The notes beneath the pieces are model-generated. The model saw only the letters and a program-made list of their open reading frames with translations. It ran no database searches and was not told the origin of the DNA. A stretch of DNA of 64,000 bases, from positions 1 through 64,000 of the forward strand of contig NZ_AOIS01000067.1 in assembly GCF_000337495.1 (NCBI RefSeq), read 5' to 3'. This stretch comes from Haloterrigena salina JCM 13891 (GTDB lineage Archaea > Halobacteriota > Halobacteria > Halobacteriales > Natrialbaceae). Shown in pieces: positions 2,224 through 21,618 of the stretch. How positions within the stretch are numbered: position 1 is the stretch's first letter; every line of letters starts with the position of its first letter. Made by a program: the position numbers and the translations under genes.

Positions 2224-3558
2224 CTAGCCCATCCACTCGGGTTGTACGTGGTCTGCCGTCCGGTACTGTTCGGGGTAGACGCACTCGAGGTCGCCCCCGG
2301 GTCGCCACTGGGTGATCGGGAAGTTCGTGATCTCGTCGTTCTCGCCGCGCTCCTCCTGGACGTCGTGGGGGTAGTCGTCGCCCTCGCCGTAGAACGAGAT
2401 CTCGCCGGCGGTCCCCGTGTACTCCAGCCCGAGCATCGCGTCGACGATGCCGTCGAGGTCGCTCTCGTAGTCGGCCGTGCCGGCCTCCTCGACGGCCTCC
2501 CGGTACAGGTAGACCGCGTCGTAGGTGTTGAACCCCATGTACATCGGGAGGTCGGGCGCGTCGTCGTCGCCCTCGGTGAACGACTGGTACGCGTCGACGA
2601 AGTCGAGGGTCTTGTCCGTGATGTCGGTCGTGCCGGCGGCGCCCGACTGCGAGGTCGTCTCGAAGGTCGCGGTCTCCTGAGAGAGTTCGTAGAAGTCGGG
2701 CGTCATGGACGCGACGTGGATCCCCTCGATGCCGAACTCGGCCTGACGCTGGTGCCAGCTCGCGAGCATGTCCGTCGCGATGATGTGGGCGAAAAAGCGA
2801 AAGACGGCGTCCGGATCTTCGGACTCGAGATCGTTCATCACCGTGCTGAAATCGTCGATACCGGTCGACAGCTCCGACTCGTAGACGACGTCGTAGCCGC
2901 GCGATTCCAGCTCACCGGGCAGGTTGTTCGTGAACGGGTCCGTCCACGCGGCGTCGTCCGCGAGATAGGCGAACGTGTTCCAGCCGTGGCGGTCCGAGAG
3001 GTAGTCGGCGTAGCCGCCCATCGCCTCGGCCTGGAAGTACGAGTTGATCGGACCGGAGCGGAAGATGTTCTTGTTCGCCTCGTAGTCCGAGCCGGTGGAG
3101 TTCTCGATGATCGCCGGCGAAGCCGACCCGGTGACGATATACGGGACGTTATTCTCGGCGATCATGTCCATGATGTTGAGCGAGACCTCACTGGAGAAGG
3201 TGCCGACGAGTAAATCGACGTTCTCCTGGTTGATCAGCCGCGACGCCTCGTCCTGGGCGGTCGACGGATCGGAGCGCGTGTTCGCGCTGACGATCTCGAC
3301 GTCTTCGTCCCGGATCCCACCCTCCTCGTTAATCTCTTCGGCCGCCAGTTCGGCGCTCCGCTCGGAACCGATCCCCTGCGTGTTCTCCAGTGGCGCGAGG
3401 TGACCGACCGTAAACCCCTCGTCGCCGCCGCCCCCGATACAGCCGGCGACCGTCGTCGCTACGGCGCCGACACCCGCGGCGCCGATGAACCGCCGACGTC
3501 CGACGGAAATCTTACCAGTTCTATCTGATCTGAGCGTATTGTTATCGTCGTTATCCAT
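2224..3558 (-). CDS. ABC transporter substrate-binding lipoprotein (LivK/amide-binding family)
   Basis: A 444-residue periplasmic-binding-protein-like domain of type I (Leu/Ile/Val or amide binding) that captures the substrate outside the cell. The N-terminus carries a Tat motif (RRRFIGAAG, residues 21-29) and a lipobox AGC with Cys40, so it should be exported folded and lipid-anchored. A glycine-rich linker follows Cys40. The domain opens with GHLAPLENTQGIG and shows the typical family segment EVSLNIMDMIAENNVPYIV. It is the first gene of the importer operon. The roughly 155 bp upstream hold no other gene and must contain the operon promoter, although I see only weak TATA candidates there. 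Confidence 0.92.
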   Translation of the reverse strand: MDNDDNNTLRSDRTGKISVGRRRFIGAAGVGAVATTVAGCIGGGGDEGFTVGHLAPLENTQGIGSERSAELAAEEINEEGGIRDEDVEIVSANTRSDPSTAQDEASRLINQENVDLLVGTFSSEVSLNIMDMIAENNVPYIVTGSASPAIIENSTGSDYEANKNIFRSGPINSYFQAEAMGGYADYLSDRHGWNTFAYLADDAAWTDPFTNNLPGELESRGYDVVYESELSTGIDDFSTVMNDLESEDPDAVFRFFAHIIATDMLASWHQRQAEFGIEGIHVASMTPDFYELSQETATFETTSQSGAAGTTDITDKTLDFVDAYQSFTEGDDDAPDLPMYMGFNTYDAVYLYREAVEEAGTADYESDLDGIVDAMLGLEYTGTAGEISFYGEGDDYPHDVQEERGENDEITNFPITQWRPGGDLECVYPEQYRTADHVQPEWMG

Positions 3559-11807: not shown

Positions 11808-12251
11808 ATGCCAAGTGGTGATCTCATCTCCGTCGATTCGACCGACCGCGCGCCGTGGTACTGGTACGTCTTGATCGGCTATCCCGCGTTGAGTCTGCTC
11901 GGGATCGTCTCGCTGGCCCGACTGACCGGCGGCGGTTCGGTTCTGGCCACGAGTCTCGGCAGCGTCGCGCTGCTGATCGTCGTCGCCGCCGCCGGCGCCG
12001 TCACGCTGCCCGCGATCTGGCGCGACGTCGAGTTCATCGAGGCCGAAACCGACGCATGGACGCCCGACCGGCAGATCTACGTCGGCGCGGCCGTCGCCGC
12101 GCCGCTGTTCCTCGGCCTGCTGTCCGGACTGGCGGCCGGGTTCGGCGTCGCGCTCGCGATCGCCCTCGTCGCCTTCCTCCTCTCGACGGTCGCCGTCTGC
12201 GTGGCCTATCTCTACAATCGCCATCGAACGGTCGGACTGATGGCTCGCTGA
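11808..12251 (+). CDS. Small membrane protein
   Basis: A 147-residue protein with four hydrophobic segments, at about residues 20-37, 44-67, 88-108 and 110-132. The loop between the second and third (DVEFIEAETDAWTPDRQ) is acidic. I do not recognise a family; it resembles the small uncharacterised membrane proteins common in haloarchaea. It is divergent from the zinc-ribbon/DUF389 operon. The shared 204-bp region (11604-11807) holds AT-rich stretches at about 11690-11715 and 11755-11780 that probably contain promoters for both sides. Confidence 0.65.
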   Translation: MPSGDLISVDSTDRAPWYWYVLIGYPALSLLGIVSLARLTGGGSVLATSLGSVALLIVVAAAGAVTLPAIWRDVEFIEAETDAWTPDRQIYVGAAVAAPLFLGLLSGLAAGFGVALAIALVAFLLSTVAVCVAYLYNRHRTVGLMAR

Positions 12252-12417
12252 GGACGACGCGTCGACGCCTCGGCTGCCACGCGACCGAGTCCGCTGAGAA
12301 CCTCCCGCACTGGCCGCTTCCGGACCGTCCGTCCGCGCCGCGAGACGACCGATCGATCACACGTCCGCTCGCGCCCGACGCTCCGGTTCGTCGGTGCACA
12401 TTCTCTAGGTTTCGTCC

Positions 12418-12426
12418 ATATTTTTA
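12418..12426 (+). promoter_or_regulatory. TATA box upstream of a 32-codon leader ORF and the DUF318 permease
   Basis: The sequence atattttta sits in GC-rich DNA, centred 27 nt before an ATG at 12449, the leaderless spacing. The 12252-12417 stretch before it shows nothing recognisable. Confidence 0.5.
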
Positions 12427-12448
12427 CGCCATAATCTATTAGGCTTCG

Positions 12449-12547
12449 ATGTCGGAAGGCCCGGACGACGCGCCCTCGGCGCGGATGACCTCCCGGCCCA
12501 CCAGCCCAGTCGCCACTATCCGCTGGCGGCCCGTCCCGACGTGCTGA
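12449..12547 (+). CDS. Possible 32-residue leader peptide (uORF)
   Basis: A short ORF that begins at the first ATG after the TATA box and encodes MSEGPDDAPSARM..., ending RPVPTC. Its TGA (12545-12547) overlaps a GTG at 12541 that is in frame with the permease downstream, so translation of the permease could be coupled to this ORF. The peptide has no recognisable domain. It may be a genuine leader or simply part of a longer 5' untranslated region; the evidence is positional only. Confidence 0.35.
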   Translation: MSEGPDDAPSARMTSRPTSPVATIRWRPVPTC

Positions 12548-12579
12548 CCGATCGGCGACTCCGTTCTCGTTACTCCACT

Positions 12580-14094
12580 ATGCACGCAGTCATCCACCCG
12601 GTTACCGACGCCCACAGCCTCGTGGCCGCGCAGACGCGACTGCTCGCCTCGCTGGCGGTAACGACGGTCGACTACGGACCGCTCCATTTCGCCACGGGCG
12701 CTCGCGGGCCGCCACTCGGTATCGGACCCGTCTCCCCGGCCCCGAACGAAGGGAGCCTCGAGTTCGCGGCCCGGCTCGCCGGCCTGCTCGGTGTGGTCCT
12801 GTTACGGCTCATCGAGGCCGCGATCATCGCCTTCGAGATGGCCTGGGAGACGTGGTGGGCGCTCGTCCTCGGGTTCACGATCACCGGCGCGGTCCAGGAG
12901 TTCGTCTCCGAAGACCGGCTCACCGACTACCTCGGCGACGACGGCTGGCGCGAGGTCGGCTACGGGACCCTCTTCGGCGCGTCGTCCTCGAGTTGCTCGT
13001 TCTCCGCGGTGGCGACGACCCGGTCGCTGTTCACCAAGGGCGCGTCGGCCGCGGCCAGTCTGGGCGCGTTCCAGTTCGCGAGCACCGACCTCGTGCTCGA
13101 ACTCGCGCTGGTCGTCACGCTCCTGCTGGGCTGGCAGTTCGCCGCGGCGGAGATCGTCGGCGGCCTCGTCGCCGTCGCCGTCCTCGCGGTGGTGTACCGG
13201 CGGTTCGTCCCTCAATCGTGGATCGAGCGCGCTCGAGCACACGCGCGGTCGCTACAGGAGATCGAGTGTGCGACCTGCGGGATGGCCGCGGACCCGACCG
13301 ACGAGGAGACCATCGCGGCTGAGTTCGACGGCGAGCGGCGACACTTCTGCTGTGGCGGCTGTCGCAACGCGTACGATCCGTCGACCGATCGCGACCCCGT
13401 TACGGCGGGCCCCGAACTGCTGTCGGGCGATCGCTGGCGGTCGGCGACCGCGAACGCGATCCGCGAGTGGGACATGCTCTGGCGGGACGTCGTCCTCGGT
13501 TTCGCCATCGCCGGCCTGCTGGCCGCGTTCGTGCCGACCGCGTGGTGGACCGCCGTCTTCGGCGTCGGTGCCGAGGGCAGCGTCCTGCGGCTCGTCTCGA
13601 ACGTCGTCCTCGGCGCCGTCGTCGGCGTGGTGACGTTCCTCTGTTCGATCGGCAACGTCCCCTTCGCGGTCGTGCTCTGGCAGAACGGCGTCTCCTTCGG
13701 CGGCGTGCTCGCGTTCATCTTCGCGGATCTGGTGATCCTGCCGCTGGTCCGTACCTACCGGCGGTACTACGGCACCCGGATGGCCGCCGTGATCGCTGGC
13801 GCGTTCTTCCTCGCGGCGGTCGTCGCCGGCCTCGTCGTCGAACTCATCTTCGGCGCGCTCGGCCTCGTTCCGCCCGCGGGCGCGGCCGGCGGCACGGTGT
13901 CGGGGACGTACACGGCGCTGTTCAACGTCGTCGCCGTCCCGATTTTCGCCGTACAGGTGTACGTCGCCCTCGAGCCCGAGCAGCGCGTTCGCATCGGAAA
14001 CCGCCTCGCACCCCACATCGCCGGGATCATCATCCGCACCCAGCAGTTCCTCGAGCGGATCGCCTACGCGCTCGAGGACCGCGGGCTGAAGTGA
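12580..14094 (+). CDS. DUF318/ArsP-type permease with a YHS-like Cys-rich insert
   Basis: A 504-residue permease of the DUF318 (UPF0718) superfamily, which includes ArsP and related metal or metalloid exporters. Two membrane halves each carry the family-type core: VQEFVSEDRLTDYLG with the Ser/Cys cluster SSSSCSF in the first, and LCSIGNVPFAVVLW in the second. The halves are joined by a cytosolic insert at about residues 229-265 with CATCGMAADP and HFCCGGC, resembling YHS/TRASH metal-binding domains. The insert may sense or deliver a metal. Start: ATG 12580 (MHAVIHPV), or GTG 12541 overlapping the leader ORF. It heads the plus-strand arm of the membrane island. Confidence 0.82.
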   Translation: MHAVIHPVTDAHSLVAAQTRLLASLAVTTVDYGPLHFATGARGPPLGIGPVSPAPNEGSLEFAARLAGLLGVVLLRLIEAAIIAFEMAWETWWALVLGFTITGAVQEFVSEDRLTDYLGDDGWREVGYGTLFGASSSSCSFSAVATTRSLFTKGASAAASLGAFQFASTDLVLELALVVTLLLGWQFAAAEIVGGLVAVAVLAVVYRRFVPQSWIERARAHARSLQEIECATCGMAADPTDEETIAAEFDGERRHFCCGGCRNAYDPSTDRDPVTAGPELLSGDRWRSATANAIREWDMLWRDVVLGFAIAGLLAAFVPTAWWTAVFGVGAEGSVLRLVSNVVLGAVVGVVTFLCSIGNVPFAVVLWQNGVSFGGVLAFIFADLVILPLVRTYRRYYGTRMAAVIAGAFFLAAVVAGLVVELIFGALGLVPPAGAAGGTVSGTYTALFNVVAVPIFAVQVYVALEPEQRVRIGNRLAPHIAGIIIRTQQFLERIAYALEDRGLK

Positions 14095-14171
14095 GGTCTC
14101 AACCGCCGACCGTTTGCCGACGTTCGACTACCGCGAGCCGATCGCGATAGCCGTCTCCCGTTCCAGTATCC

Positions 14172-15584
14172 ATGACCCAACACCCGACAGACGCCGCCGA
14201 CCGCACCGATCCGATCCGGATCGTCTGTCTCGTCGCGCTCGCGACGAGCCACGGGCTGATCCGCCTCGCCGAACGATACCTCCCCGAGTTCGTCGTCGCG
14301 ATCGGCTCCGGGCCGATCGTCGCCGGCGCGCTGGTGTCGCTCGGATTGGGCGTCGCCGTCGCGGCGTCCCGGCACTCGAGCGACGCCGACGCCGGTCCGA
14401 CGAGCGACCTCGCGCCCGCCGCGGCCGCGGTGGCGTCGGTGCTCGTCGCCGCGGTCGGCCTCCTCGCGTGGGCGGGTGCGCCGACGCTCGACGCCCTGCT
14501 GGGAACGCCGCTGTCGGCGCTGGGGTGGCTCGCGGTCGGGATCGTCCTCCTGCAGGCGTGGCACGTCCGCGGCCCCGTGCGGGACCTGTGGCCGACCGAT
14601 ACGCGCGCGGCGGCACCGCCCTCGAGCGCGGTGCCCGCTCGCGACGAGGCGTCGATTCGGCGCGGAGCCGTCGACGGACGACGAACGCGGACCGTCGTCG
14701 GCGCGCTCGGCCTCGCCGCGGCGGCCGTGTTCGCTGCGGCCGCCGTCGCGAGCGCCGGCGGGGTCCGCACGGGCTTCGTCCTCGTCGCCGCGACCGGCGC
14801 TGCGGTCGCCCTCGTCGGCGCGATCGCACTGGGTTCCGCGGGGGAGCGAACGTCGATCCTCACCGCGCGAGTGCTCGGCGAGGGCCTCGAGGGGAGCAAC
14901 CGAGACGGCGAGAGTGAGGCGCGCAGAAACGAGACGACCACCGCTGCGCCAGCCGACGCGGAGTCTCCGCTCGGCGCGGTCAGCAGCGCCGCCTCGAGAC
15001 TCCCCGACCGCCGTCGCTGGGCGGTCATCGGCGACGCCCTCGTTCGGGTCGCCCTCGCTGGGAGCTGGCCGTTCCTGATCCTGCTGGTCGTCGAGTACCG
15101 ATCGATCGGGCTCTCGATCGGCGGCCTCTCGCTGGCGCCGGCCGCCGTCTTCGGCCTGTTCGTCCTCGCGGAGGCCGCGGGCGCGGTCGTCGGCGCGGTC
15201 GCCGCCCCCGCCCTCGCCTCGCGGCTCGACCGGCGCGCGGTGCTGGCCGTCGGTCTCGCCGTCGTCTCGCTGCTCCCGATGGGCCTCGTGGCGGCCCCGT
15301 CCAACGCCGGTATCGTCGCCGTCCTGTTCGCACTGCTGGGCTGTCGGACGGCGATCGAACCGCTCCGGCCGACCGTCGGCGAGAGTGCTCGCGTCGCCCC
15401 GGTTCCCGGCCCGCGGCTCCCCGACGCGGTCGGGACGGCGGTGCAGGTCGCCGTCGTCCCCGCACCGCTGATCGGCGGCCTGCTGTACGCGGTCGACCCG
15501 ATCTTCGCGTTCACCATCGCGACGACGGTCGGCCTGCTGGGCGTTCGCGAACTGGGTCGGGCGTTCGCGTTCGGACGGCCGTGA
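14172..15584 (+). CDS. MFS-like membrane transporter
   Basis: A 470-residue polytopic protein with 12 or so hydrophobic segments and a hydrophilic central loop (about residues 225-280), the layout of a major facilitator. The C-terminal half is the clearer part: ASRLDRRAVLAVGLAVVSL resembles the MFS motif between helices 8 and 9. The N-terminal half is Ala/Val/Gly-rich and weakly conserved in pattern. The substrate is unknown. It ends in a TGA that overlaps the GTG start of the oxidase-like gene by 4 bp, so the two are almost certainly translated together. Confidence 0.7.
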   Translation: MTQHPTDAADRTDPIRIVCLVALATSHGLIRLAERYLPEFVVAIGSGPIVAGALVSLGLGVAVAASRHSSDADAGPTSDLAPAAAAVASVLVAAVGLLAWAGAPTLDALLGTPLSALGWLAVGIVLLQAWHVRGPVRDLWPTDTRAAAPPSSAVPARDEASIRRGAVDGRRTRTVVGALGLAAAAVFAAAAVASAGGVRTGFVLVAATGAAVALVGAIALGSAGERTSILTARVLGEGLEGSNRDGESEARRNETTTAAPADAESPLGAVSSAASRLPDRRRWAVIGDALVRVALAGSWPFLILLVVEYRSIGLSIGGLSLAPAAVFGLFVLAEAAGAVVGAVAAPALASRLDRRAVLAVGLAVVSLLPMGLVAAPSNAGIVAVLFALLGCRTAIEPLRPTVGESARVAPVPGPRLPDAVGTAVQVAVVPAPLIGGLLYAVDPIFAFTIATTVGLLGVRELGRAFAFGRP

Positions 15585-17080
15585 CTCGATCGATCGGCCG
15601 GTCGAACGTCGACCACCGACGGCTCGCCCGCTGGCACCTCGCGCTGGCGCTGGTGATGGGGCTGTGGGGCGGGCTCGACGCGCTGTTCCTGCGAACGGCG
15701 CTGGTCACGCCGACTCTCGGTCGGTTGACGGCTGAGACCTACAACGCCTTCTTCACGACCCACGGGCTGACGATGCTGTTCCTGTTCGCGCTGCCGGCGA
15801 TCTGGGGCGTGTCCTACGTCGCCGTCCCCCCGCTGATCGAGGCCGACGACGTCGCCGCGCCGACCCTCGGCGCGGTCGCGTTCTGGCTGCAGGTCCCCGC
15901 GGCGCTGTCGATTCGGGCGGGCACGATCGGCGGCATCCTCGGCGTGGCGGGCCTCGAGCCGGTCGCCAGCGGGTGGACGCTGTATCCGCCACTGAGCGTG
16001 CTGTCGGCGAACCCGGCCGTCGACGCCCTCCTCGCCGGACTCGCGCTGGTCGCCGTCGGGACGACGCTGACGGCGTGGACGCTCCTCCGCACGATTCTGC
16101 GCGAGCGCGAGGTCCGGTGGCTCGAGGTCGACACGTTCACGTGGACGGTGCTGACCGCCGCGGCGATGTCCCTGCTGGCGTTTCCGGTGCTGGCGGCGAC
16201 GGTCGCGCTCGTTCTCGCGGACCGGACGCTCGCCACCGGGTTCCTCCTCGGCGGCGGCGGGCCCCAGGTCTGGCAACACCTGTTCTGGTTCTTCGCCCAT
16301 CCGCTGGTGTACATCGTGGTGTTGCCCCCGATGGGAATCGTCAGCCACGTGCTGCCGCGGTTCGCCGGCCGGAAGCTGTTCGGCCACCGCTCGTCCGTCT
16401 ACTCGACGCTCGCGATCGGCGTCGTCTCGTTCACCGTCTGGGCCCACCACATGTTCGTGACCGGAATGAGCCTCCCCGTGCGGACGGTCTTCATGCTCAC
16501 GACGCTGGCGGTGGCGCTCCCGAGCTCCGCGAAACTCTGTACGTGGCTCGTGACGCTATGGGGCGGTTCGATCCGGTACACCGCGCCGATGGTCGCGTCC
16601 CTCGCCGCCGTCGGCTTCTTCGTCGTCGGCGGCGTCACCGGCGTCTTCCTCGCCGTCGTGCCGATCAACGTCCGCTACACCGGGACCTACTATGTCGTCG
16701 CGCACTTCCACCTGCTGCTCGCCGGCTTCGTCGCGCTCGCGCTGGTCGCCGGCGTCTACTACTGGTTCCCCCTGCTCACCGACCGGCGCCTCGAGCCGGG
16801 GCTGGCCCGCCTGCACGTCTGGCTCACGGTCGTCGGCGTCGCGGTGACCTTCGGGGCGCTCCTGCTCGTCGGCCTCGCACAACTCCCGCGGCGCGTCGCG
16901 ACCTATCCGGCGGCGTACGCGCCGCTGCACCAACTGGCGACCGTCGGCGCCTACGTGATCGCCGCCGCCCAGGCCGTCTTCCTCGCGAACCTCGCCCGAT
17001 CGCTGTGGCTCGGCGATCCCGCTCCCAACGATCCGTGGGCCCTCGAATCGGGGCCGTCGCACACACGCGAATGGAAATAA
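15581..17080 (+). CDS. Heme-copper oxidase subunit I-like protein, divergent
   Basis: A 499-residue, roughly 12-helix subunit I homolog. All metal ligands are present: His61 (TTHG) and His377 for the low-spin heme, His375 for the high-spin heme, and His240, His289 and His290 (WAHHM) for CuB; Tyr244 of HPxVY is kept. Numbering almost matches bovine COX1. However, the D-path Glu of HPEVY is Leu242, the Asn positions of that path are Ser78 and Gly97, and the magnesium-site His-Asp is Thr367-Gly368. Asp90 and the K-path Lys318 remain. No subunit II or CuA gene is in the window. It starts at a GTG overlapping the MFS-like gene. It could reduce oxygen or another small gas. Confidence 0.85.
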   Translation: MTRSIGRSNVDHRRLARWHLALALVMGLWGGLDALFLRTALVTPTLGRLTAETYNAFFTTHGLTMLFLFALPAIWGVSYVAVPPLIEADDVAAPTLGAVAFWLQVPAALSIRAGTIGGILGVAGLEPVASGWTLYPPLSVLSANPAVDALLAGLALVAVGTTLTAWTLLRTILREREVRWLEVDTFTWTVLTAAAMSLLAFPVLAATVALVLADRTLATGFLLGGGGPQVWQHLFWFFAHPLVYIVVLPPMGIVSHVLPRFAGRKLFGHRSSVYSTLAIGVVSFTVWAHHMFVTGMSLPVRTVFMLTTLAVALPSSAKLCTWLVTLWGGSIRYTAPMVASLAAVGFFVVGGVTGVFLAVVPINVRYTGTYYVVAHFHLLLAGFVALALVAGVYYWFPLLTDRRLEPGLARLHVWLTVVGVAVTFGALLLVGLAQLPRRVATYPAAYAPLHQLATVGAYVIAAAQAVFLANLARSLWLGDPAPNDPWALESGPSHTREWK

Positions 17081-17263
17081 TTGCGCCGTCCCGTTCCGTC
17101 GTCGAGCTGACCAACTCCGACTCGAGTCCGCGCTCCCTGACGACCGAGTACGCCGATTGTCGCCCGCGATCGAACCGCGCCGCTGCTCGAGCGAGTCGCA
17201 TCGCCCGCCAGCCACCGCAACTGCGTGCGGTCCGCAGACCTACGCAGCGCACCACGTTCACCC

Positions 17264-17590
17264 ATGTCAACCACTGCAAGCACCGACGTCGCACTGATGC
17301 TCCTGCAACTGATCGCGGTGACGATCCCCGCGACCGTCGTCCTGATCGAACAGTTACGTCGGTCGGGGAACCTCGAGTGGCAGTTCCGGAAGCTGAGCTT
17401 CGGGCTCGTGCTCTCGAGTATCGGGCTGCTGCTCGCGGCCGCGACTGCCGTGATGGCCTACTTCGTCGCGAGCCTTCAGCTATCGGCCGCCATTTACGCC
17501 GGACTGATTCTCGTGATCCTCGGGTTGCCGCCCCTCGGGGCGTTCGTCGCCGTTCTCTACCGCGAACACCGGATGGAGTTCGGTCCCTGA
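17264..17590 (+). CDS. Small three-helix membrane protein
   Basis: A 108-residue protein starting MSTTASTDVAL with three hydrophobic segments (about residues 6-24, 40-65 and 70-94) and a basic loop RRSGNLEWQFRKLS between the first two. I recognise no family. It lies 183 bp after the oxidase-like gene and could be an accessory subunit of it or an independent membrane protein; the sequence does not decide. An upstream in-frame extension of 13 residues is Arg-rich and less likely. Confidence 0.6.
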   Translation: MSTTASTDVALMLLQLIAVTIPATVVLIEQLRRSGNLEWQFRKLSFGLVLSSIGLLLAAATAVMAYFVASLQLSAAIYAGLILVILGLPPLGAFVAVLYREHRMEFGP

Positions 17591-17598
17591 AGGCCCTC

Positions 17599-17646
17599 GC
17601 TACGTCCGGACTCGGCCGGCTGCGGGTTCGACTCCCGCGCGTAGCT
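17599..17646 (+). other. tRNA-like acceptor/T-arm structure without D and anticodon arms
   Basis: Bases 17599-17605 (gctacgt) pair with 17639-17645 (gcgtagc) as a 7-bp acceptor-type stem with one G-U. Bases 17622-17626 (gcggg) pair with 17634-17638 (cccgc) as a 5-bp T stem closing the canonical 7-nt loop ttcgact, and the two stems abut exactly as in tRNA. Only 16 nt separate the 5' acceptor strand from the T arm instead of about 41; they can form a small hairpin (ccgg/ccgg). It could be a tRNA remnant, an RNA-processing signal, or an unusual small RNA. Confidence 0.5.
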
Positions 17647-17647
17647 T

Positions 17648-17664
17648 CGGCGGCTTCGCCGCCG
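17648..17664 (+). repeat. 7+3+7 palindrome (TTC loop), intergenic copy
   Basis: cggcggc-ttc-gccgccg is a perfect 7-bp inverted repeat around TTC, two bases after the tRNA-like structure and just before the PadR gene. The same architecture occurs inside the acyl-CoA synthetase gene and at the start of scpA. Without a downstream T-run it is not an obvious archaeal terminator. Confidence 0.6.
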
Positions 17665-17675
17665 GTGACGAACCG

Positions 17676-18041
17676 ATGCCCAGCCACCCACCGAGTGACA
17701 CCGACGACAGTACCGAACCGATCTCCGACGAGCACGCGGAGCCGCGGCCGCTGGCGAACCTGACCGGGTTCAAACGTGATCAACTGTTCGTTATCCGAAT
17801 GCTCGCGGAGCGAAACCCCCACGGACTCGTCATCAAGGACAAGCTCGACTGTTACTACGACGAGGAGATCAACCAGGGCCGACTCTACCAGAACCTGAGC
17901 GAACTCGTCGAAGAGGGTTACGTCGAGAAACACCCTCTCGACGGGCGAACCAACGCCTATCGTCCGAGCACGCGCGCCAACAGGCGTCTCGAGGAACACC
18001 ACGAGTGGGAGCGCCGGTGCCTCTGCTGTGAGTCCCCATGA
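17676..18041 (+). CDS. PadR-family transcriptional regulator
   Basis: A 121-residue winged-helix protein. After a 30-residue acidic N-terminal tail it has the PadR pattern: FKRDQLFVIRMLAERNPHGL, GRLYQNLSELVEEGYVEKH and the wing DGRTNAYRPS. Its C-terminus ends CLCCESP, three cysteines that might sense metal or redox state. It would bind DNA as a dimer near its own or adjacent promoters. It sits in the middle of the membrane island, so it is a candidate regulator of the oxidase-like and dehydrogenase-like genes. Confidence 0.8.
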   Translation: MPSHPPSDTDDSTEPISDEHAEPRPLANLTGFKRDQLFVIRMLAERNPHGLVIKDKLDCYYDEEINQGRLYQNLSELVEEGYVEKHPLDGRTNAYRPSTRANRRLEEHHEWERRCLCCESP

Positions 18042-18222
18042 CGGTCGCGCTCCCGCGGCGATCGCACCGACGGCGTTCGCCGCCGGGCGCGGTCGCGCGT
18101 TCCCGGACCATCGCCGGATCGTCCGTTCTGAGTCTGCACAGTGATCGTATCGATCGAACTCTCCGAGTAGACCGACGTCTGCCGAGCGGGTCGGTCGACC
18201 ATAGTCCGTTGACCCTGACACG

Positions 18223-19503
18223 ATGACAGCCTTTCACGACACCGACGACGAGACGACCCGAACCGATCCCGACCTCGCCGCCCCGTGGGCGTACGCGACG
18301 GCCGCGACGCGCCGTCTCGGCGTCCCCGACGGGATCGAACAGCGACTGCTCCACCCCCGCCAGCGCGAGCGGATTTCCGTGCCGTTCGAACGCGACGACG
18401 GCGCGCTCGACGTCTGCGAGGGGTACCGCGTCCGCCACGACGGCGTCCGCGGTTCCTTCCTCGGACCGCACCGGTACTACCCCGCGCTGAACGGGGACGA
18501 CTGCGCCGGCCTCGCGGCCGCGACGACCGTCAGCGCGGCGATCGCCGACCTCCCGTTCGGCGGCGCCGCGGGCGGAGTCGCGGTCGATCCGACGGCGCTG
18601 TCCCAGGACGAACGCAGTCGACTCACCCGATCCTACGCGCACCGAATCGCGGGCGTCGACCGCGGCGACGACGTCCTCGTTCCGGAGGTCGGTACCGACC
18701 GGCGGACGATGGCCCGGTTCGCCGACGCCGTCGCCGACGACGTCGACGCCCCCCGAACCGCGGCCGTCGCCGGCAAACCGCCGGCCATCGGCGGCCTCCG
18801 GGAGATCGATCGGGCGGGCGGTCACGGCCTCGCGCACGTGACGCGGGAGGTCCTCGAGACCGACCGCGACCGACCGCTGGCCGACGCGACGATCGCGGTC
18901 TACGGCACTGCGGCCTGCGGCGTGGCGGCCGCTCGTCTGCTCGAGTTCCGGGGCGGCTCCGTCGTCGCCATGTCAAGCGACCGAGTCGGCCTCGTCGCTC
19001 CGGACGACGGCTCCGGGCTCGATACCAACCTCGTGCCCAGTTATCTCGAGCGTCCGGGCGCGCTCGCCGAGTACGACGACGGCACCGTGACCGGCACCGA
19101 GAACGTCCTCGAGTGCGACGCCGACGCGTTGGTTCTCGCGGCGCCGGCGACGACGATCACCGCCGACAACGCCGACGGCATCCGCGCCGACCTCGTCGTC
19201 GAAGGGACCGTCGGCGCCGTGACGCCGGACGGACAGCGCGCCCTCGAAGAGCGCGGTATCGACGTCGTCCCCGCCGTGCTCGCGACCGCGGGGCGGCCGA
19301 TCGCGGCCCACCTCGAGTGGATCCGGACCGTCGGCCGCGATCGCATGAGCGACGCGCGCGTGACCAACGAGTTCGCCTACGCGCTGACCGACGCGGTCGA
19401 GGACGTTCGCGACCGCCGCGAGCGCTGCGATCTGAGTTGGCGGGCCGCGGCCTATAGCGTCGGCTGCTCCCGCGTCGCGGCGGCCCACGAGGTGATTCGG
19501 TGA
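18223..19503 (+). CDS. Glutamate dehydrogenase-like protein lacking catalytic residues
   Basis: A 426-residue protein with the full Glu/Leu/Phe/Val dehydrogenase fold: an N-terminal substrate domain (about 40-185) and a C-terminal NAD-type domain (about 190-420). The active-site lysines of the family are all changed: the position in RGPYKGG is Leu80, that in MTWK is Ser104, and that in GGAKGG is Ala116; the catalytic Asp of PAPD is Glu155. The dinucleotide loop GxGxxG is also degenerate (GTAACG). It is therefore unlikely to oxidise glutamate and may be a regulatory or binding protein. Its stop overlaps the GTG of the propeller gene, so they form an operon. Confidence 0.85.
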   Translation: MTAFHDTDDETTRTDPDLAAPWAYATAATRRLGVPDGIEQRLLHPRQRERISVPFERDDGALDVCEGYRVRHDGVRGSFLGPHRYYPALNGDDCAGLAAATTVSAAIADLPFGGAAGGVAVDPTALSQDERSRLTRSYAHRIAGVDRGDDVLVPEVGTDRRTMARFADAVADDVDAPRTAAVAGKPPAIGGLREIDRAGGHGLAHVTREVLETDRDRPLADATIAVYGTAACGVAAARLLEFRGGSVVAMSSDRVGLVAPDDGSGLDTNLVPSYLERPGALAEYDDGTVTGTENVLECDADALVLAAPATTITADNADGIRADLVVEGTVGAVTPDGQRALEERGIDVVPAVLATAGRPIAAHLEWIRTVGRDRMSDARVTNEFAYALTDAVEDVRDRRERCDLSWRAAAYSVGCSRVAAAHEVIR

Positions 19504-20747
19504 TCGACCGCCTCGACGACTCGCTGTCCGACGCCCTCGAGTGGCTCCAGCGGGTCGGCTCGCCCGGAACGGCCGACGACGCGAGCGAAGCGGGCAGCGA
19601 CCGGACCGAAGCCGACGGCGACCGCCGATCCGCCGGCGACGACGGAGGGGAGGGAGACGCCGACGCCGCAAACCGAGCGAGCGACACGGACGCCGGCGAC
19701 GGGACCGACGACCGCGGCGACTGGGAAGCCGTCGAGTCGCCGACGTCTCGGACCCTCCACGGCGTCGTCCACGGACAGGACGGCCCCTACGCCTGCGGCG
19801 AAGGTGGACTGCTGCTTCACCGAACCGGCGACGGCTGGCGGGTCGTCCTCGAGCGCGGCCCGGGCGTCTCGGAGAACACCCTGCGCTCGATCGCGGCGAC
19901 CGACGACGGCTGTCGGCTCTGGTTCGCCGGCGACAGCGGCGCTCTCGGGTTCTACGACGTGGCCGACGGCCACCTCAGCGACTACTCCGCGCCGATGGAG
20001 AAGACGAGCACCTGGGAGGCCATCGCCGTCGCGGGCCGAACGGGCGAGGAACGCGTTCGCATCGCCAACGGCTCCGGCGAGGTCCTCGACTGCACCGTCG
20101 AGGACGGCTGTCCCGTCTGGGGCGAGGTCGTCGAACCCGGCGGCGGATCGACGATCCCCGGCATCACGGCGGGGCCGGACGGGTTCTACGCGATCGACAC
20201 CAGCGGCGGCGCGTACCGCGAGGCCGCCGCCGGCGACGCGACCGCCGGCGGGACCGACGGTTCGACGGAGCGCGATCCGAGAGACGGCGAACCGGCAGAT
20301 ACGGAGCCCACCGACACCGAACCGACCGACGAGTGGGACCGGATCGGCGTCCGCAACGCACAGGTTGACTTCCAGGACGTCTGGGCCGGCGACGAGTCGG
20401 TGTTCATCGCCGGCGCCGACGGCATCGCCTACCGGTACGATCCCGACTGCGAGAACTGGACGCCGCTGCACGTCGGACAGGGCGCGCTGCAGGCGATCCG
20501 GTCGCGGGGCACCGACACGGTGGCGGTCGCCAACGGCGGCCGGATCTACGAGCGGGCGGCGAGCGTCCGCTGGACCGAACTGGACGCCCCGACCGAACAG
20601 TCGCTGCTGGGACTCGCGCTGGCTCGCTCGAGCGCTGACAGCGACGGCCTGGGAACCGTCCCCGTCGACGTCGCGGTCGGCGCCGGCGGCGCCATCCTCG
20701 AGTGCGGCCGCCGCGAGCGGCCGACCGACGGTGATCGCCGTGACTGA
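19500..20747 (+). CDS. Beta-propeller protein, cytosolic paralog of the 7523-8494 lipoprotein
   Basis: A 415-residue protein starting at a GTG that overlaps the upstream stop. Residues 1-75 are an acidic Asp/Gly-rich linker with no signal peptide; the rest is a beta-propeller of the same blade type as the lipoprotein at 7523-8494. Shared segments include AGDSGALGFYDV, SAPMEKTSTWEAIA and VWGEVVEPG. Another acidic low-complexity insert (about residues 240-280, repeated D-T-E-P-T) interrupts the blades. It may be a scaffold or assembly factor; absence of a secretion signal suggests it acts in the cytoplasm or is carried by a partner. Confidence 0.72.
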   Translation: MIDRLDDSLSDALEWLQRVGSPGTADDASEAGSDRTEADGDRRSAGDDGGEGDADAANRASDTDAGDGTDDRGDWEAVESPTSRTLHGVVHGQDGPYACGEGGLLLHRTGDGWRVVLERGPGVSENTLRSIAATDDGCRLWFAGDSGALGFYDVADGHLSDYSAPMEKTSTWEAIAVAGRTGEERVRIANGSGEVLDCTVEDGCPVWGEVVEPGGGSTIPGITAGPDGFYAIDTSGGAYREAAAGDATAGGTDGSTERDPRDGEPADTEPTDTEPTDEWDRIGVRNAQVDFQDVWAGDESVFIAGADGIAYRYDPDCENWTPLHVGQGALQAIRSRGTDTVAVANGGRIYERAASVRWTELDAPTEQSLLGLALARSSADSDGLGTVPVDVAVGAGGAILECGRRERPTDGDRRD

Positions 20748-20802
20748 ACGCCGGCCGTCCGCGATCGTATCGCACGTCGACCCCCACTTCGCCGCGTAAC
20801 CG

Positions 20803-21618
20803 ATGGCACCAGACATCTCACTCCCGTCGACCGATCGTCTCGACCTCGAGGTCCCGGCCCCCGAACTCCTCGTCCTCTCGCTGTCGGCCCTGCTGTGGCT
20901 CGTCCTCCTGCAGGGGTGGCTTCCCGGACTTGGCTCCCCGCCGGCGGGCCTCGAGGCGCCGATGAGCGCACCGGGCGTCCCCGAAGCGATCGCCGCGGCC
21001 AACGGCCTCGGCGGCGTCGCGGCGTACCTGCTGCTGTGGGGGACGATGATGCTGGCGATGATGCTCCCGTCGCTGCTCCCGGTCGTTCGGAAGATCCGCG
21101 AGGAGGTCTGTGCCAGTCGATCCGTGTTCGGATCCGCGATCGCCGCCTTTCTCGGCGCCTACGGCCTCGCGTGGACGCTCGTCGGCGCCGTCCCGCTGGC
21201 GGTTGCCGTTCTGGTCCCGATCCGTGCGCTGCTGACCGCCTCCGCGTTCGGCATCTCCGTCGCCGCGCTCGTCGTCGGCGGTCTGCTGGCGTTCGCCGGT
21301 GTCTACCAGCAGACGGCGCTGAAACGCGATCTGCTCGCTCGTTGTGGTCGCTGTCATTCGGTCCCTCATCGTCCCGAGTCCGCTCGAATGGCCCGCGACG
21401 GTCTCTCGTACGCCGCCAACTGTATCGGCTGTACGTGGCCGCTGTTCGCGCTGATGGTCGCGCTCGGGTCGATGAACGTCCTCGTCATGGTCGGGCTGAC
21501 CCTCGTCGTCTCGATAGAGCGGCTCGCACCGGACGAGACCGCCGCCGCTCGCGCCCTCGGCGTCGTGCTACTCGGCGCCGCTGTCTTCACGCTCCTGTTC
21601 GGCGTGCCGGCCGTCTGA
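20803..21618 (+). CDS. DUF2182 metal-binding integral membrane protein
   Basis: A 271-residue membrane protein of the DUF2182 (COG5486) family. Family marks are the Met-rich helix WGTMMLAMMLPSL, the loop YQQTALKRDLLARCGRCHS with a CxxC, and the helix start CIGCTWPLFALMVALGSMN. The Met and Cys residues suggest a soft-metal site such as copper, but the family has no proven function. Six to seven hydrophobic segments are seen. It follows the propeller gene by 55 bp and closes the plus-strand arm of the membrane island. Confidence 0.85.
   Translation: MAPDISLPSTDRLDLEVPAPELLVLSLSALLWLVLLQGWLPGLGSPPAGLEAPMSAPGVPEAIAAANGLGGVAAYLLLWGTMMLAMMLPSLLPVVRKIREEVCASRSVFGSAIAAFLGAYGLAWTLVGAVPLAVAVLVPIRALLTASAFGISVAALVVGGLLAFAGVYQQTALKRDLLARCGRCHSVPHRPESARMARDGLSYAANCIGCTWPLFALMVALGSMNVLVMVGLTLVVSIERLAPDETAAARALGVVLLGAAVFTLLFGVPAV

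Follow-up and report, generated by a model that had tools for sequence, protein, structure and literature searches.

The window, the whole 64,000-nt stretch analysed here (positions 1 to 64,000 of contig NZ_AOIS01000067.1 of Haloterrigena salina JCM 13891), holds at 11808-21618 a gene cluster that runs from an ArsP-like permease to a DUF2182/PpoB2 protein and is conserved on haloarchaeal chromosomes and plasmids. Its order is permease, transporter, haem-copper oxidase subunit I, small membrane protein, a tRNA-like element, PadR-like regulator, Glu/Leu-dehydrogenase-like protein, a protein without a Pfam match, and DUF2182/PpoB2. According to public annotation, the same cluster occurs in Natrinema zhouii and, rearranged, in Haloprofundus salinisoli; the annotated clusters of these two species list no feature at the element. 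The element and its immediate surroundings consist of the following features:

15581-17080, forward strand: haem-copper oxidase subunit I gene (PF00115, E 2e-120)
17264-17590, forward strand: small membrane protein gene, 108 aa (open reading frame, kept in related loci)
17599-17605, forward strand: 5' strand of the acceptor-like stem, GCTACGT, pairing with 17639-17645 (7/7 pairs)
17606-17619, forward strand: D-arm-like hairpin CCGG-ACTCGG-CCGG, in which the GG at the loop end abuts the 3' strand
17620-17621, forward strand: 2-nt linker CT, in place of the anticodon arm and variable loop of tRNA
17622-17638, forward strand: T arm GCGGG-TTCGACT-CCCGC, loop at 17627-17633
17639-17645, forward strand: 3' strand of the acceptor-like stem, GCGTAGC (same basis as the 5' strand)
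17646, forward strand: discriminator-like base T, placed by analogy with tRNA
17648-17664, forward strand: second hairpin CGGCGG-CTTCG-CCGCCG, recognized by covariation
17664-17668, forward strand: Shine-Dalgarno-like GGTGA, between the second hairpin and the start codon
17676-18041, forward strand: PadR-like HTH regulator gene, 121 aa (Pfam PF03551, E 7e-9)

The small membrane protein has no Pfam or NCBIfam match. Its stop codon lies 8 nt 5' of the element, which leaves little room for a separate promoter, and co-transcription of the small membrane protein gene, the element, and padR is presumed. The padR ATG lies 30 nt 3' of the element (17599-17646), with the second hairpin between them.

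The minimum-energy fold of 17599-17646 computed with ViennaRNA consists of the acceptor-like stem, the small hairpin, and the T arm, and it agrees exactly with the tRNA-like geometry and coordinates of the original prediction (17599-17645), a geometry that is also conserved across genera. Folding energies were unremarkable (z of -1.6 for 17599-17646, and of -0.3 with flanks), so thermodynamics alone could not establish the structure. A descriptor of the T arm plus acceptor found 0.15 matches per 64 kb on both strands of first-order random sequence of window composition, and 12 Mb of such sequence held no instance of the full 16-pair geometry with TTCRA, which bears out the earlier claim that the arrangement is hard to get by chance. 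Together with the covariation described below, these counts rule out a chance origin of 17599-17645.

Relatives of the PadR-like protein were taken from GTDB genomes, and the DNA 5' of their start codons was read. The same element was found 5' of the padR-like gene in Natrinema, Natrialba, Halobiforma, Natronoglomus, Saliphagus, and Halovivax. Of 100 related genomes, ten encode a close PadR relative (E <= 4e-35), and every one of these has the element, the Halovivax copy being interrupted; the 20 weaker PadR homologues inspected gave no significant element match. The upstream gene varies (small membrane protein, oxidase, and others) and the element stays with padR, as in two genomes of another family (L060 and L061), where a different gene lies upstream. 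The interrupted Halovivax copy (L039 2902-2968 and upstream) has a mismatch in the T stem and a long stretch inserted into its D-like loop, and may be intron-like or decaying.

A plain MAFFT alignment of 13 sequences (A2) had 99.3% of cells paired and five double-changed pairs; none of 500 shuffles equalled these measures, and the pairing was lost when the partner was shifted by 1-3 columns. A covariance model of the element (R1), searched in 392 genomes of Halobacteriales, had matches in 37 of them, spanning seven families and 18 genera; almost all lie ahead of padR in the same gene cluster. A search of 295 genomes of the phylum gave no match beyond Halobacteriales. The 44 R1 matches, in an alignment fitted to the model, had 96.7% of cells paired and double changes in 15/22 pairs, and RNAalifold recovered an identical structure from this alignment with 16/22 pairs covarying. 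Covariation was seen in all four helices. The acceptor-like stem has double changes in 4/7 pairs in alignment A2 and 5/7 in the 44-match alignment (A3), with its first pair broken in 9 of 39 sequences, and in A3 the T arm (97% of cells paired) has double changes in 2/5 pairs, the small hairpin (98%) in 3/4, and the second hairpin (98%) in 5/6, for example CGACGG/CCGTCG in L060/L061. The second hairpin is therefore part of the element. In the syntenic relatives both stems of the original prediction, acceptor and T, are conserved and covary, and on this point it stands. Conservation, beyond energy, confirms that the element is real.

G-U pairs account for 27/843 cells and were counted in favor of RNA because they are tolerated only in RNA read in this orientation; with the mixed helices, they argue against a mere DNA palindrome. 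These patterns indicate that the RNA works as a signal, most likely by marking a messenger for cutting or control. Weak model matches in likely coding sequence (L196, L197, L242-L244, and L247) were judged to be false positives, and single matches at E ~0.001-0.01 were therefore not trusted without context. Searching the Haloterrigena salina JCM 13891 genome with model R2, which was built from mRNA-type elements only, found no further strong copies.

The 16 nt between the 5' acceptor strand and the T arm had been described as able to fold into a 4-bp hairpin, with no D arm present. They do fold, and that description understated them, since the hairpin covaries and carries D-loop features. Its loop ends in GG in 37/39 distinct rows and in CG in the other two, and the T loop reads TTCGA in 36/39; the loop-end GG occurs together with a T loop TTC in 36 of the 39 distinct rows and with ATC in one more. 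Both copies in genome G289 combine a CG loop end with a T loop that starts TGC; in tRNA numbering, both partners of the 18/55 contact change and those of 19/56 are retained. This pair is suggestive support, from a single lineage, for docking of the two loops. In the crystal structure of mascRNA, the two Gs of a GG dock on the T loop (PMC11693755), and the GG/TTC loop pair here fits docking of that type. Because the two bases at its loop end are those expected to touch T-loop positions 55/56, we call the small hairpin a D arm; judged by sequence, it is one in substance, contrary to the original prediction, and the missing parts would be the anticodon arm and variable loop only. The absence of an anticodon arm was correctly seen, as the linker between the D-like and T arms is 2-3 nt in every aligned member.

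A T arm and acceptor that resemble the 3' half of a tRNA could point to a degenerate tRNA gene or an att remnant of a tRNA 3' end, and a deleted tRNA had been among the original proposals. We regard such an origin as very improbable and have rejected it: compensatory changes occur in all helices across genera, the element occupies the same site before the same gene, none of the 30 tRNA genes of the genome that were compared shares the acceptor stem together with the T arm, and the genome holds no second copy of the T-arm 13-mer.

The window has no Rfam 15 family above gathering score, and neither ARAGORN nor Rfam detected the element as a tRNA. Like tRNA (RF00005), it has an acceptor stem, a T arm with a TTCRA loop, and an implied D/T-loop contact; unlike tRNA, it is 47 nt long and lacks an anticodon arm and variable loop. 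The mascRNA-menRNA family (RF01684) is a tRNA-like Rfam match far below threshold (16.5 bits against a gathering threshold of 42.5). It shares the acceptor, the T arm, a reduced D arm with GG before its 3' strand, and a location inside a longer transcript. It differs in being a vertebrate lncRNA, whereas the padR element is an archaeal mRNA leader without any anticodon-like arm. The element could be released as a stable mascRNA-like small RNA of 47 nt that acts in trans, with the neighboring genes serving as its host transcript. Its GG next to the stem and its T loop have the mascRNA geometry (PMC11693755), as that explanation expects. However, the stem sequences vary freely, the element is tied to padR or neighboring start codons, and the conserved second hairpin, the GTGA, and the ATG spacing would be left unexplained. 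We consider a small RNA of this kind clearly unlikely.

The closer parallel is found at the 5S rRNA. In Haloferax volcanii, as relayed by PMC4326828 and PMC3296008 from Holzle (2008/2012), tRNase Z cleaves a tRNA-like t-element that lies immediately 5' of 5S rRNA. In general, RNase P and tRNase Z both act on t-elements, which have been used as tools (PMC4326828, PMC4946936, PMC3296008). The Haloterrigena salina genome itself has a T-loop element that abuts 5S. In a distant family, model R2 matched a site (L173 1501-1550) whose position, by Rfam, is precisely between 23S and 5S rRNA. The score of this match is modest (29.3 bits, E ~0.02 genome-wide, one genome only), and we therefore take it as kinship of form, with descent not proven. 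Like the haloarchaeal 5S t-element, the element studied here is tRNA-like, has an acceptor and a T arm with consensus T loop, and may stand at the 5' edge of the downstream RNA; unlike it, the element precedes a protein gene and has an extra 3' hairpin and GTGA before the ATG. Where the 5S element of its own genome has a 10-nt spacer, the padR element has a 4-bp D arm. T-elements are already known, and what is probably new is a D-armed, anticodon-less form with a 3' hairpin, conserved before protein genes. Tandem 5S rRNA-like genes were also observed in this genome (G000 C69 17562-17816; L163, L165), the second being the weaker match (54 vs 95 bits).

In organelles, tRNAs punctuate polycistronic transcripts. 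The haloarchaeal elements are similar in being tRNA-shaped elements between genes that may direct cutting, and differ in being minimal mimics, not tRNAs, with at most two per operon seen. Elements precede two consecutive genes in five genomes (Halovivax L039, Natronoglomus L040, Saliphagus L041, G301, and G289), the additional one standing ahead of the previous gene in the operon. Given the structure, its conservation and covariation, its position, and its formal likeness to the 5S t-element, we think it somewhat probable that the element is an intercistronic t-element at which RNase P and tRNase Z cut the messenger, a reading favored because the elements precede consecutive genes, like punctuation, and because of the 5S case. 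A processing signal was among the options of the original prediction, as was a new small RNA class, and these options survive, with RNase P and tRNase Z as the putative enzymes of processing.

The proposed pathway would begin with a messenger on which the 47-nt RNA in the padR-like leader folds as the upper half of a tRNA, the acceptor stacked on the T arm, the D-arm loop docked onto the T loop, and the anticodon arm absent. RNase P would cut 5' of 17599, or tRNase Z directly 3' of 17646, or both. Cutting would free the small-membrane-protein message just after its own stop codon and leave a padR message headed by the second hairpin, followed by GGTGA and the ATG, with a presumed effect on expression. 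The discriminator-like base at the predicted tRNase Z site differs among members (T, C, G, or A). A stable hairpin 1-2 nt 3' of this site might hinder cutting.

The second hairpin, the GTGA, and the near-constant distance to the ATG are equally expected of a leader for translational control. The element could accordingly be an uncut cis-regulatory leader, a tRNA mimic bound either by a regulator or by a protein of tRNA metabolism (candidates being a synthetase, a modification enzyme, RNase P, and tRNase Z), which would act with the second hairpin to gate GGTGA and the ATG. In padR-type members the start codon lies 6-12 nt 3' of the covarying second hairpin, with GTGA or ATGA between in many. 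The second elements of Natronoglomus and Halovivax (L040 2402-2480 and L039 2335-2410, ahead of the small membrane gene) lead into CCTCCC...GGGAGG and then ATG; this hairpin would bury a Shine-Dalgarno sequence. The same composite also occurs before another small gene, in family f4. No alternative fold is conserved across families, however, structured leaders are reported to be atypical in haloarchaea (PMC4983044), and the consecutive-gene elements and the 5S case fit processing better, so that we hold an uncut leader to be rather unlikely. A switch in which GGTTCG of the T arm (within 17625-17639) pairs with CGAACC before the padR ATG (within 17660-17674) was considered and rejected: the complementarity is found in this genus, close relatives have GCACC/GTACC, and it is not kept in Natrialba, for example.

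Family f4 has the identical 7-4-6-4-2-5-7-5-7 geometry, built from unrelated stem sequences, at L112 (3330-3377), L236 (272-317), and L245 (G348:C1:643327-643372), followed by a hairpin GGGGC..GCCCC, GTGA, and the ATG of a small ORF (~61 aa); the L112 element lies downstream of a 98-aa ORF. By sequence, f4 would represent a second gene context for the class.

Cellular-mRNA tRNA mimics are rare and seldom backed by covariation, and the element is a very small tRNA-shaped RNA that retains the elbow and recurs before protein genes in many haloarchaea. Cutting by tRNA-processing enzymes, as we prefer to read it, would carry the concept of the t-element beyond 5S rRNA and engineered constructs, into the punctuation or control of natural messengers, and it suggests a route by which operon genes gain new 5' ends without promoters. 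The element would also be a natural substrate for probing the requirements of archaeal RNase P and tRNase Z. More tentatively, haloarchaea may have a new class of structured mRNA leader, composed of a mini-tRNA without anticodon arm, a hairpin, and a Shine-Dalgarno-like sequence and shared by several unrelated operons. Through it, tRNA-processing enzymes would set or sense respiration-linked gene expression, cutting being control as well as housekeeping; we place this on the doubtful side of possible.

Looser forms of the geometry were found in L115 and L241. L118 and L239 have a form with a short spacer of 9 nt (..CGGCGTA), and L240 has a related short version. An ATG lies within a few nt of the element at L112 3010-3053, L115 ~3439-3486 (minus strand), L240 (G201:C6:3350-3389), and possibly L180 1501-1546 (minus strand), with weak scores for some of these four. 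Cleavage just 3' of the discriminator there would yield an almost leaderless message, and we treat these sites as leads, not proofs; in Haloferax volcanii, leaderless transcripts make up 72% of the protein-coding ones (PMC4983044). At L238 (G227:C3:799478-799534), an acceptor ACCCCGT/ACGGGGT and a T arm are followed by a hairpin TTTCCC-AACC-GGGAAA before the ATG of a gene for a 457-aa protein with a signal-like N terminus, a possible third gene context.
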